DNA of 64,000 nucleotides from Xanthomonas sp. Leaf148 (lineage in GTDB: Bacteria; Pseudomonadota; Gammaproteobacteria; Xanthomonadales; Xanthomonadaceae). Shown one piece after another: positions 1-45,424 of this stretch. The stretch covers positions 434,001 through 498,000 of the forward strand of contig NZ_LMOP01000001.1 of NCBI RefSeq assembly GCF_001423585.1, in the 5' to 3' direction. How positions within the stretch are numbered: the first letter of the stretch is position 1; every line of letters begins with the position of its first letter. A program made the translations under genes and the position numbers. The notes below the pieces were generated by a model. The model saw nothing but the letters and a program-made list of their open reading frames with translations, ran no database searches and was not told where the DNA came from.

Positions 1-952
1 GGCGGATCACTTCAGGCAACGCGTCCAGGCCTTCTTCGAAAGTGTATTCGAACCCGTGGTGCACGGTGCCCAGCGCTGCGGCGGCCACTTCTGCAGCGGC
101 AAGATCGGGCGAGCCTTTCAGGCCGATCGCGAACGAATGCAGCCGCGGCCACCACGCTTCGGTGGTGTCGTTTTCTTCGATGCGATGCCGTGCATAGCGC
201 GCGGCGACGGCTGCAACCAACGACGAATCCAGGCCGCCCGAGAGCAACACGCCGTATGGCACGTCGGTCATCAACTGACGATGCACCGCCCGCTCGAAGG
301 CTTCGCGCAATTCCTGCAGTTGCACCTGCACGCCTTCCACTTCGCCGTATTCGCGCCAGGCGCGTTCGTAGTAGCGGCTCAATGCGCCGGTGGCGCTGTC
401 GTACCAATGGCCCGGCGGAAACTGTGCGGCATCGGCGCAATCGTCCACCAACGATTTCAGCTCGGAGGCCACGCGCAGGCGGCCTTCGCGATCGTGGCCC
501 CAGTACAGCGGCACCACGCCGATCGGGTCGCGCGCAATGATCACGCGCCCGGCCGCCTTGTCCCACAGTGCGAACGCAAAGATGCCGTTGAGGCGGTTGA
601 GATACGAGGCCGGTGCATCTTCGCGATACAGCGCGTTGATCACCTCGCAATCGGAACCGGTCTGGAAGGCGTACGGCTGCTGCAGCTCCTGCTTGAGTTC
701 GCGATGGTTATAGATTTCGCCATTCACCGCCAAGGCCAGCTGCCCATCTTCGGAGAGCAAGGGCTGCGAGCCGCCAGCCGGGTCGACGATGGCCAGCCGC
801 TCGTGCACCAGGATTGCGCCGGTGTCGACATACACGCCGCTCCAGTCCGGACCGCGATGCCGCTGCCGCTGCGAACATTCCAGCGCCTGCCGGCGCAGGG
901 CCTGCAGATCGTCGCCGGGTTGCAGGCCGAAAATGCCGAAGATGGAACACAT
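1..952 (-). CDS. asnB: Asparagine synthetase B, glutamine-hydrolysing (3' end outside window)
   Basis: Converts aspartate, glutamine and ATP to asparagine in the cytoplasm. The minus-strand frame from the ATG at 952 starts Met-Cys-Ser-Ile-Phe-Gly-Ile; Cys2 is the class II glutaminase nucleophile exposed after Met removal. It continues with RHRGPDWSG, VNGEIYNHRELK and a synthetase P-loop-like VLLSGGLDSSLVA near residue 240. About 317 codons are present and the gene runs off the left edge, so the rest of the synthetase domain is unseen. It lies 295 bp downstream of dapE on the same strand, with an attenuator-like leader in between (separate entries), so expression probably responds to asparagine supply. 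Shifting the start to a codon above 952 is not supported because Cys2 must be N-terminal. Confidence 0.93.
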   Translation of the reverse strand, partial: MCSIFGIFGLQPGDDLQALRRQALECSQRQRHRGPDWSGVYVDTGAILVHERLAIVDPAGGSQPLLSEDGQLALAVNGEIYNHRELKQELQQPYAFQTGSDCEVINALYREDAPASYLNRLNGIFAFALWDKAAGRVIIARDPIGVVPLYWGHDREGRLRVASELKSLVDDCADAAQFPPGHWYDSATGALSRYYERAWREYGEVEGVQVQLQELREAFERAVHRQLMTDVPYGVLLSGGLDSSLVAAVAARYARHRIEENDTTEAWWPRLHSFAIGLKGSPDLAAAEVAAAALGTVHHGFEYTFEEGLDALPEVIR

Positions 953-1022
953 GGAAACACTCCTGATCAAACTGCGGGGATGGATGACCGATGGACGAGC
1001 ATGCTGCTTGGAAGTGACGCCC

Positions 1023-1055
1023 AAAAAAAAACCCGCATCGGCCGATGCGGGTTTT
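1023..1055 (-). terminator. Intrinsic terminator in asnB leader
   Basis: A perfect 28-bp palindrome (arms AAAACCCGCATCGG at 1055-1042 and its complement at 1041-1028) followed on the minus strand by a run of nine U (1031-1023). It sits 71 nt before the asnB start codon, so it must be conditional. It is the termination half of the attenuator. Because it is palindromic with A on the other side it could also stop plus-strand transcription, but no plus-strand gene ends here. Confidence 0.85.
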
Positions 1056-1109
1056 CTGATTCCTGGGCGTTTGGATGTACTTCGCCTAGTCGCAGACCCG
1101 CATCGGCCG
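1023..1109 (-). promoter_or_regulatory. Predicted transcription attenuator of asnB (terminator/antiterminator switch)
   Basis: On the minus strand, segment A (1109-1096, CGGCCGATGCGGGT) lies at the end of the Asn-rich leader ORF. It is perfectly complementary over 14 nt to segment B (1052-1039, ACCCGCATCGGCCG). Segment B overlaps the 5' arm of the terminator hairpin (1055-1042 pairing with 1041-1028), so the two stems exclude each other. Predicted logic: a ribosome stalled at the Asn codons leaves segment A free, A pairs with B and transcription proceeds into asnB. With charged Asn-tRNA the ribosome reaches the stop codon at 1088-1086, masks A, and the terminator forms. The geometry is seen in the sequence; the mechanism is inference by analogy with known amino-acid attenuators. 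Confidence 0.72.
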
Positions 1110-1175
1110 CGCACGATTATTCGCGCGCAGCGTGTTGCGGTTGGCGTTATTAAGCTTGGCGAGGTGGATGACCAT
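1086..1175 (-). CDS. Asparagine-rich leader peptide of asnB (29 aa)
   Basis: A 29-codon ORF (ATG at 1175, TAG at 1088-1086) in the gap between dapE and asnB. Six of its 29 residues are Asn, at positions 9, 10, 12, 14, 19 and 20, in the stretch LNNANRNTLRANN; the codons are a mix of AAT and AAC. Such end-product codon runs upstream of a terminator are the hallmark of ribosome-mediated attenuators (trpL, hisL, ilvL). The last codons overlap a 14-nt segment (1109-1096) that can pair with the terminator. No clear Shine-Dalgarno precedes the ATG; a weak -10-like TAGCGT ends 7 nt upstream, which would make the message leaderless. The role is inference from sequence. Confidence 0.72.
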   Translation of the reverse strand: MVIHLAKLNNANRNTLRANNRARPMRVCD

Positions 1176-1182
1176 GTAACCG

Positions 1183-1211
1183 ACGCTAACCGTTCGTTTT
1201 CGCTGGCGCAA
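1183..1211 (-). promoter_or_regulatory. Possible weak promoter for asnB leader
   Basis: TTGCGC (1211-1206) and TAGCGT (1188-1183) are separated by 17 bp on the minus strand. Each matches the sigma-70 consensus at only three positions. If used, transcription would start at or next to the A of the leader ATG (1175). Read-through from dapE is the alternative source of the transcript. Confidence 0.25.
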
Positions 1212-1247: not shown

Positions 1248-2378
1248 TCAACCGATCAACAAGCGTTCGACAAGCGTGCGGTACAGCGACGGCAACGCCT
1301 CCAGATCGGCCACGCGCACATGCTCGTCGACTTGGTGGATCGACGCGTTGACCGGGCCGACCTCGATGCATTGCGCGCCCAGCGGCGCGATGAAGCGCGC
1401 ATCGGAGGTGCCACCGCCGGTGCTCTCCTCCGGCGGCGCGCCAGCGAACTGGCCCAACACTTCGCGCGCGACGCTGCGCAGGCGCCCCTCCGGGGTGTAG
1501 AACGGCTCGCCGCTGCGGTGCCAGCGCACGCTGTAATCCAGCGCATGGCGATCCAGCACTGCGGTGATTTCTGCCTCCAGCCGCGGCGCATCCCACTGCG
1601 GGGTGTAACGCAGATTGAAGGCCACCTGCAGCTCGCCGGGGATCACGTTGTTGGCACCGGTGCCGGCATGGATGTTGGAAATCTGCAGACTGGTGGGCGG
1701 GAAACTTTCGAACCCGTCGTCCCAGCGCCGTGCGACCAATTCGGCCAACGCGGGCGCTGCCAGATGGATCGGGTTGCGCGCCTTGTGCGGATACGCCACA
1801 TGGCCCTGCACGCCGTTGACGGTCAGCGTGCCGGACAGGCTACCGCGGCGTCCAACCCGCAGCAGGTCGCCCAGTCGCTCGGTGGACGATGGCTCGCCGG
1901 TGATGCACCAATCGATCGCTTGCCCACGTTCGCGGAACAGATCGGCCACACGCCGCACGCCATCGATGGCATCGCCTTCCTCATCGGAGGTCAACAACAC
2001 CGCCAACGTACCGGGGTGCTCCGCATGGGCCGCAACAAACTGCTCGGCGGCAATCACGAAGGCAGCCACGCTGCCTTTCATATCGGCGGCACCACGCCCG
2101 TACAGCACGCCATCGCGGATCTGCGGATCGAACGGATCGCTGGTCCACGCTTCGCGCGGGCCAGGCGGCACCACATCGGTATGCCCGAGCAGCACCAGCA
2201 CCGGCGCGCCGCTACCGTGCGTGGCCCACAGATTATCGACCTCGCCCAAGCGCAGGTGCTCGCAGGCGAATCCGGCAGCGGCCAGGCGCTGCGCGATCAC
2301 GGCCTGGCAGCCGGCATCCACCGGGGTCACCGAGGCGCGCGCAATCAAATCACGGGTCAGATCCAGCACATCACTCAT
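1248..2378 (-). CDS. dapE: Succinyl-diaminopimelate desuccinylase
   Basis: Hydrolyses N-succinyl-LL-diaminopimelate to LL-DAP and succinate in the succinylase route to lysine and peptidoglycan DAP. The protein is 376 aa, the usual DapE size. M20 metallopeptidase motifs are present in order: [11 protein letters not shown] with zinc-ligand His66, [10 protein letters not shown], the catalytic/ligand stretch [17 protein letters not shown] and [10 protein letters not shown] longer frame exists upstream (to 2447), but the ATG at 2378 gives the normal N-terminus MSDVLDLT. It is preceded by the arsC/spx-like gene, as in E. coli (yffB-dapE), with a 225-bp gap containing a strong hairpin. asnB follows. 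Confidence 0.95.
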
Positions 2379-45274: not shown

Positions 45275-45424
45275 GAGCAGCTCGCAAAACGACCGTACTC
45301 ACCACCAGGCGGGCGCGGCCGGTGTTCGGTTCTCGGTGCGGCATGTACCGTTCGTACACGCCGGTTCCTCCGCACCGTCCACACCGAACTGACGACTGCT
45401 CGCTACGTTTTGTGAGCCGCTCTA
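45273..45424. repeat. About 150-bp dispersed element, copy B
   Basis: Begins within the yhhQ stop codon with AAGAGCAGCTCGCAAAACG and ends ACGTTTTGTGAGCCGCTCT, imperfect terminal inverted repeats of about 18 bp. Internal blocks match copy A at 37193-37337 in order. The rest of the gap to 45636 (GC-rich, no gene) contains nothing I recognise apart from the leader of the DUF885 gene. Confidence 0.65.

Follow-up and report, generated by a model that had tools for sequence, protein, structure and literature searches.

The window analysed here, 64,000 nt of Xanthomonas sp. Leaf148 (GCF_001423585.1, NZ_LMOP01000001.1, positions 434,001-498,000), carries on its minus strand, in the order of reading, dapE (stop codon 1250-1248), a short leader ORF, a terminator and asnB (ATG 952-950). 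All coordinates given below are those of the window. The distance from the dapE stop to the leader ATG is 72 nt, and 70 nt lie between the last T of the terminator and the asnB ATG. The following features were assigned.

1248..2375, minus strand: dapE, the upstream gene on the same strand, outside the device (TIGR01246, 546.7 bits)
1206..1211, minus strand: -35-like hexamer TTGCGC of the putative leader promoter (TTGC 35-37 nt before the start codon)
1183..1188, minus strand: -10-like hexamer TAGCGT after a 17-nt spacer, ending 7 nt 5' of the leader ATG (TTGC-anchored columns)
1086..1175, minus strand: Asn leader ORF MVIHLAKLNNANRNTLRANNRARPMRVCD, 29 codons, probably leaderless, with a UAG stop; conserved in relatives
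1140..1151, minus strand: Asn codons 9 and 10 (1151-1146) and 12 (1142-1140), from the sequence
1136..1140, minus strand: segment 1, CCGCA, with its partner UGCGG at 1102-1098 (from the fold; 97.3% of cells paired in alignment A2, see below)
1134..1136, minus strand: Asn codon 14 (AAC), from the sequence
1106..1131, minus strand: inner hairpin GCUGCGCGCGA-AUAA-UCGUGCGCGGC within the 1:2 stem (from the fold; 87.3% of cells paired in A2)
1116..1121, minus strand: Asn codons 19 and 20 (AAT AAT), lying in the apical loop of the inner hairpin and next to it (sequence and fold)
1096..1109, minus strand: segment 2, CGGCCGAUGCGGGU, the antiterminator strand at the end of the leader ORF (pairing and recoding test)
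1083..1086, minus strand: GGCG, one strand of a second short antiterminator stem, pairing with CGCC at 1069-1066
1066..1069, minus strand: CGCC, the partner strand, pairing with GGCG at 1086-1083
1039..1052, minus strand: segment 3, ACCCGCAUCGGCCG, the complement of segment 2, overlapping the 5' arm and loop of the terminator (from the sequence)
1023..1056, minus strand: intrinsic terminator (3:4), 13-bp stem 1056-1027 and nine-U tract 1031-1023 (dG -19.6 kcal/mol)
960..964, minus strand: Shine-Dalgarno sequence AGGAG of asnB (from the sequence; best anti-SD duplex -7.2 kcal/mol)
1..952, minus strand: asnB, glutamine-dependent asparagine synthetase, 5' part, running off the window (TIGR01536, 276.2 bits against a cut-off of 267.1, on a 316-aa fragment)

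The leader ORF contains six Asn among its 29 codons, at positions 9, 10, 12, 14, 19 and 20, as a preliminary description of this DNA had it, and the gene downstream encodes the synthetase of that same amino acid (TIGR01536 score above the cut-off). The same description spoke of a 28-bp terminator palindrome with a nine-U tract. Its place is right; the palindrome AAAACCCGCATCGGCCGATGCGGGTTTT (1055-1028, loop of 4 nt, nine T ending at 1023) is a 28-nt dyad, and the RNA stem has 13 bp, one pair longer outward. The third element described there was recovered as well: the 14-nt segment CGGCCGATGCGGGT (1109-1096) is the exact complement of 1052-1039, which overlaps the 5' arm of the terminator. Beyond these elements we found a 1:2 hairpin, a probable near-leaderless start of the leader and a second short antiterminator stem. 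In Xanthomonas the 1:2 hairpin consists of CCGCA/UGCGG enclosing the inner hairpin, and it masks segment 2.

To follow the element in relatives, we used a set of 80 loci (L004-L083) coding for the nearest relatives of asnB, together with a script that requires a hairpin and a T-run downstream of a short ORF whose last 22 codons include at least four Asn. The Asn-rich leader ORF with the hairpin was present at 45 of the 80 loci; five of these (L016, L023, L029, L036 and L051) were missed by the script. Leaders were present at 44 of the 47 loci with asnB at least 70% identical, plus L051 at 65%. Genera named in the titles of leader-bearing records include Xanthomonas, Stenotrophomonas, Pseudoxanthomonas, Luteimonas, Thermomonas, Lysobacter, Arenimonas, Rhodanobacter, Dyella, Fulvimonas and Frateuria. 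The three loci without a leader despite asnB identity of at least 70% are L021, where a different open frame ends 19 nt before asnB, L031 and L049. Their contigs are labelled Holophagales, Rhodococcus and Deltaproteobacteria (L049 is a MAG), as could result from transfer or from mixed bins.

A second, order-wide sample consisted of 200 evenly drawn genomes of the order, 128 of which had asnB at E≤1e-60: 66 with identity ≥70% (including the source genome, hence 65 others) and 62 with identity of 53-64%. A leader with 3-8 Asn in the last 22 codons was present in all 65 other genomes of the first group (the leaders of G083, G039 and G172 were re-read by eye), with a mean Asn fraction of 0.20 (63 leaders); the terminator was found by the script in 64 of the 65 and by eye in G024. 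Some species may occur in both samples, and the two are not wholly independent. Among the 62 divergent asnB genes, two with just 95 and 325 bases upstream, a leader was seen in one (G080), which is a lower bound. This lone Asn-rich leader, MFAIYNTINTTNNRLLRSAGSF (L179), comes from a different family (f7), has a terminator and precedes an asnB just 57% identical to the source gene; it may be a relic or an independent gain.

Pairing, energy, promoter, stall and recoding analyses were done on 45 rows, namely the window and 44 loci, with L051 left out. The terminator was present in 45/45 with dG from -13.2 to -31.8 kcal/mol, 19-34 nt past the leader stop; U tracts are poor in L029, L036 and L051. 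The leader stop is UAG in 38 of the 45 and in 56 of 63 leaders of the order sample. Pairing of segments 2 and 3 with at least six contiguous pairs (G-U allowed) was observed in 41/45, while L022, L029, L036 and L040 have five. The paired letters differ by genus: GGCCGAUGCGGG/CCCGCAUCGGCC in the Xanthomonas type, GGCGGGCC/GGCCCGCC in Rhodanobacter, CGCGGGC/GCCCGCG in Lysobacter and GCAGGCC/GGCCUGC in L039. The 1:2 hairpin differs as well, being CGCCAA/UUGGCG in the Rhodanobacter-type loci L027, L030, L035 and L038 (L026 and L037 have other best folds) and CGCC/GGCG plus GCCU/GGGC in Lysobacter. In Stenotrophomonas-type leaders segment 2 starts up to 29 nt before the stop, so that a ribosome bound at the stop would cover it partly.

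In the joint alignment (A1, 45 rows) the 5' arm of the terminator was misaligned between genera, and the alignment was therefore split by clade into A2 (15 rows, Xanthomonas-type), A3 (14 rows, Rhodanobacter/Dyella) and A4 (10 rows), together 39 of the 45 rows; L007, L015, L016, L022, L029 and L036 were dropped before pair counts. The fraction of paired cells in A2, A3 and A4, respectively, was 97.3%, 69.0% and 87.5% for the 1:2 stem, 94.4%, 98.2% and 87.1% for the main 2:3 helix, and 98.8%, 98.0% and 98.9% for the terminator. For the second short antiterminator stem it was 54.4% (weak) in the Xanthomonas-type set and 92.9% (strong) in the Rhodanobacter/Dyella set; in all 14 rows of the latter, the first base of the stop codon is paired in the antiterminator.

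The covariation score of the 1:2 stem and terminator taken together was above all 500 shuffles in A3 and A4, and not above all 500 in A2, which hardly varies. Changes on both sides of a pair fall mostly in the terminator; in the 1:2 stem they are thin, with one pair in A3 and one in A4. Covariation of the 2:3 helix was not clearly above shuffles in A2, A3 or A4, because 2:3 pairs vary too little within clades. Of what the preliminary description had proposed to look for in relatives, the Asn codons (45/80 loci; 65/65 genomes at ≥70% identity) and the pairing (41/45) were thus found to be conserved; strong covariation within genera was not.

Constraint on the antiterminator strand was assessed by recoding, with the peptide and the Asn codons kept fixed and the other codons drawn from asnB usage. 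The mean energy of the antiterminator duplex was -28.0 kcal/mol for native sequences versus -20.8 for recoded ones (window and 44 loci), with p≤0.05 in 31/45, p≤0.01 in 12/45 and a median p of 0.028. In 14/45 the test was not significant, and L022, L029, L036 and L039 had no excess (p 0.32-0.47). Shuffling the letters of the ORF end matched the native energy in no more than 2% of 200 trials for 37/45. The nucleotides of the ORF end are thus constrained beyond the peptide they encode. When partners were swapped between species, the mean rose to -22.7 kcal/mol from the native -28.0; the own partner was the single best for just 3/45, the arms of relatives being often equal or better, as GC-rich arms are common to relatives.

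The tetranucleotide TTGC occurs 35-37 nt upstream of the leader start codon in 45/45 (window and 44 loci), and a start codon with this TTGC spacing and at least three Asn was available in 63/65 leaders of the order sample; starts were picked by hand in the first set and TTGC was required in the second, and both choices bias toward the spacing found. After a 17-nt spacer there follows a hexamer resembling T-A-n-n-n-T, the end of which is 6-8 nt 5' of the leader start; in the TTGC-anchored -10 columns (n=45) the T is present in 29, the A in 22 and the last T in 34. Transcription starting 7 nt past such a -10 hexamer would hit or adjoin the AUG, and judging from this promoter spacing the leader ORF looks near-leaderless. 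The anti-SD duplex is -2.4 kcal/mol for the leader ORF versus -7.2 for asnB, asnB having the stronger one in 42/45; SD-like duplexes of -7.3 to -7.7 kcal/mol precede some leaders (L020, L023 and L043). A generic consensus scanner reported neither promoter nor terminator in 900-1400; in our reading the terminator escaped it because A:T pairs of the stem consume T of the tract, leaving too few for the scanner's rule. In the window, 1227-1206 reads GTTGC...GAAAC...GTTGC, overlapping the leader -35 region, a possible regulator site; a GTTGC-GCAAC inverted repeat occupies the same place in several Stenotrophomonas and others.

The share of AAU among Asn codons is 136/290 in the 45 leaders versus 54/372 in the asnB genes of the 44 loci. 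Slower decoding or avoidance of pairing could be the cause of this enrichment.

We consider it very probable that the element controls asnB by ribosome-mediated transcription attenuation, with charged tRNA-Asn as the signal sensed. The proposed course of events is as follows. RNA polymerase would start at the leader AUG or within about two bases of it, and a ribosome would load on the nearly leaderless 5' end. With ample Asn-tRNA, the ribosome would clear the Asn codons, reach the UAG and cover at least part of segment 2, so that the 3:4 terminator would form and transcription would stop before asnB. When Asn-tRNA is scarce, the ribosome is expected to stall at an Asn codon and open the 1:2 hairpin, while segment 2 stays mostly uncovered; its pairing with segment 3 would then keep the terminator from forming, and asnB would be transcribed and translated from its own Shine-Dalgarno sequence. 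If the leader is not translated, segment 2 would be held by the 1:2 hairpin and the terminator would usually be favoured. What the analysis shows directly is the anatomy, its conservation, covariation of the terminator and, thinly, of the 1:2 stem, and constraint on the nucleotides of the antiterminator; the start site, leader translation, stalling, termination and the response to asparagine are what we infer.

In the folding calculations the ribosome was taken to cover about 13 nt downstream of the stalled codon, an approximate footprint. With a stall at one or more Asn codons, the RNA made before the 3' arm of the terminator folded to the antiterminator in 45/45, a count made without a shuffle control. 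With the ribosome at the stop codon the terminator formed in 45/45, a result nearly built into the model, and in ribosome-free RNA the terminator won in 39/45. In the finished stalled RNA, the antiterminator had the lowest energy with a stall at one or more Asn codons in just 16/45; the switch must therefore be kinetic. In the trp attenuation model (PMC1183508), a race between ribosome and polymerase decides the outcome.

Could the hairpin be simply the terminator of the dapE transcript, with an asnB promoter downstream and the Asn codons incidental? In the window dapE is on the same strand and stops 72 nt short of the leader ATG. The generic scan found no promoter between the terminator and asnB and none at the leader either, and so does not decide the matter. 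Of the 45 leader-bearing loci, however, just 7 have a dapE match whose end is no more than 150 nt from the leader on its upstream side, and 15 have one further away, while no dapE was found in the examined upstream DNA of 23 (less than 2 kb in four of these), and in L051 the leader is preceded by a tRNA-Arg gene. As dapE rarely adjoins the leader, and the leader-terminator unit tracks asnB instead, this reading was rejected as very improbable. Still less credible is a chance neighbourhood of an Asn-rich stretch and an ordinary terminator. Short ORFs are common, and the window represents one genome, but all 65 relatives with close asnB genes have the leader, and the script matched once in the window and almost nowhere away from asnB; with nearly all script matches at asnB leaders, chance was rejected too.

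A slightly better, though still slim, prospect is that some factor other than Asn-tRNA controls the terminator, be it protein, small RNA or ligand, the ORF being a bystander or coding for a functional small peptide. The finished stalled RNA favours the terminator at every Asn codon in 29/45, and a leader peptide of Sinorhizobium meliloti acts in trans (PMC7298713). Against such control, the runs of Asn stay while other residues of the peptide change between genera, the Asn codons are placed, with respect to segments 1 and 2, as would suit stalling, the downstream enzyme makes asparagine, and no Rfam riboswitch was detected at gathering score.

Attenuation through charged tRNA-Asn would have well-studied counterparts, as leader-peptide transcription attenuators are known for the his, trp, thr, leu, ilv and phe operons. 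The asnB element shares with them an ORF rich in codons for the product, 1:2, 2:3 and 3:4 hairpins, an intrinsic terminator and a biosynthetic gene (for the trp model, see PMC1183508); unlike them, it would sense asparagine and precedes a single gene. The preliminary description had likened the leader to the trp/his/ilv attenuators with asparagine as the amino acid, and the comparison of relatives supports this, the 1:2 hairpin completing the trp/his-type set. None of the Rfam amino-acid leaders reached gathering score here (the best were Thr_leader with 22.7 of 55 bits and Leu_leader with 21 of 50); with no family at gathering score, a known Rfam leader or riboswitch was rejected. In Firmicutes, asn genes are controlled according to tRNA-Asn charging by the T-box, which lacks a leader peptide and itself binds the uncharged tRNA. 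The T-box thus also reads tRNA-Asn charging, whereas the asnB element uses a leader peptide; in the window scan no T-box match was found at gathering score.

The S. meliloti trpL (rnTrpL) transcript begins at the leader AUG and is leaderless (PMC7298713). It resembles the asnB leader in this respect, but concerns tryptophan and an alphaproteobacterium, and for asnB the leaderless start is deduced from promoter spacing. Actinobacterial attenuators of trp, trpS, leuS and ilvB, also predicted as leader peptides with terminators by comparison, serve other amino acids; the word asparagine is absent from that paper (PMC1262725). Neither asparagin- nor asnB occurs in the main text of a broad attenuator screen (PMC2965389), and neither asparagine nor asnB in the available part of a survey of Xanthomonas small RNAs (PMC3039613). 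In the literature searched, which mostly does not include subscription papers, no Asn attenuator turned up among the matches listed, and no paper combined the terms asnB, attenuator and leader peptide. The two papers that mention both asparagine codons and a leader peptide treat other subjects, judging by title and the start of the abstract. Among the matches listed there was no description of the control of asparagine synthesis in this group. AsnB of Xanthomonadales is known for its signature indels (PMC3568101).

The attenuator reading is strongly supported by the comparison of relatives, and asparagine is apparently a new amino-acid specificity of the classical mechanism, an earlier prediction being possible with the subscription literature mostly outside the search. 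We lean, with some reserve, to the view that this is the first asparagine-specific ribosome-mediated attenuator, nearly confined to one order and one asnB lineage, in which the leaderless transcript would put the sensing ribosome on the RNA at the polymerase exit and the regulatory codons have moved towards AAU, the rarer Asn codon. Leader-peptide attenuation would then extend to asparagine, and the element would offer a ready reporter of Asn-tRNA charging in the group.

The limits of its spread are sharp, nearly always one asnB lineage and hardly anything outside, and would make it a clean case for the origin and inheritance of an attenuator. On both strands of the 64-kb window the script gave a single match, at the asnB leader, and in ~2.0 Mb of loci (both strands counted; results for L001-L083 and from L211 up) the only match away from asnB leaders was L052, from Bacteroidales. 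With the threshold lowered to at least three Asn, the script found no Asn leader upstream of asnS (30 loci), of 30 class loci or of 40 further TIGR01536 matches (profile 1-515 to 1-517; one with just 142 bases on the contig); over these loci together with L051-L083 and L221-L322 there were four matches (L055, L082, L227 and L228), none of which precedes the start of an asnB or asnS gene. This version of the script missed L051 with its poor U tract; weak elements could escape there and among divergent asnB genes.

The source genome has an AsnRS gene and, ~51 kb away, a second asnB-like gene (a TIGR01536 match; L002), before which the script with at least three Asn found no Asn leader. An AsnRS gene was found in 59 of 61 genomes of the order, the source genome among them, which fits a direct link of free asparagine to tRNA charging. 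AsnA was found in 1 of 132 genomes of the class and is absent from the source genome. With the source asnB as query (E≤1e-60), matches were obtained in 3 of 140 genomes of the class, including two Xanthomonadaceae, so that outside the order this lineage of asnB is rare.

For RNA models R1 and R2, built from two clades, the top 29 and 32 matches across the order were without exception beside asnB; below these came matches on the opposite strand and weak ones off site. At E≤0.01 the two models matched 107 and 72 of the 200 genomes, but many of these matches are weak and probably due to chance. Weak off-site matches of R1 include G128:C4:308057-308161 (E 4.3e-7), not at the asnB of G128, and G154:C112:4522-4645 (E 3.8e-7), G154 not being among the listed asnB matches. 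Elsewhere in the window, at 45343-45418 on the plus strand, lies the Xanthomonas small RNA sX9 (Rfam RF02228, 85.1 bits).
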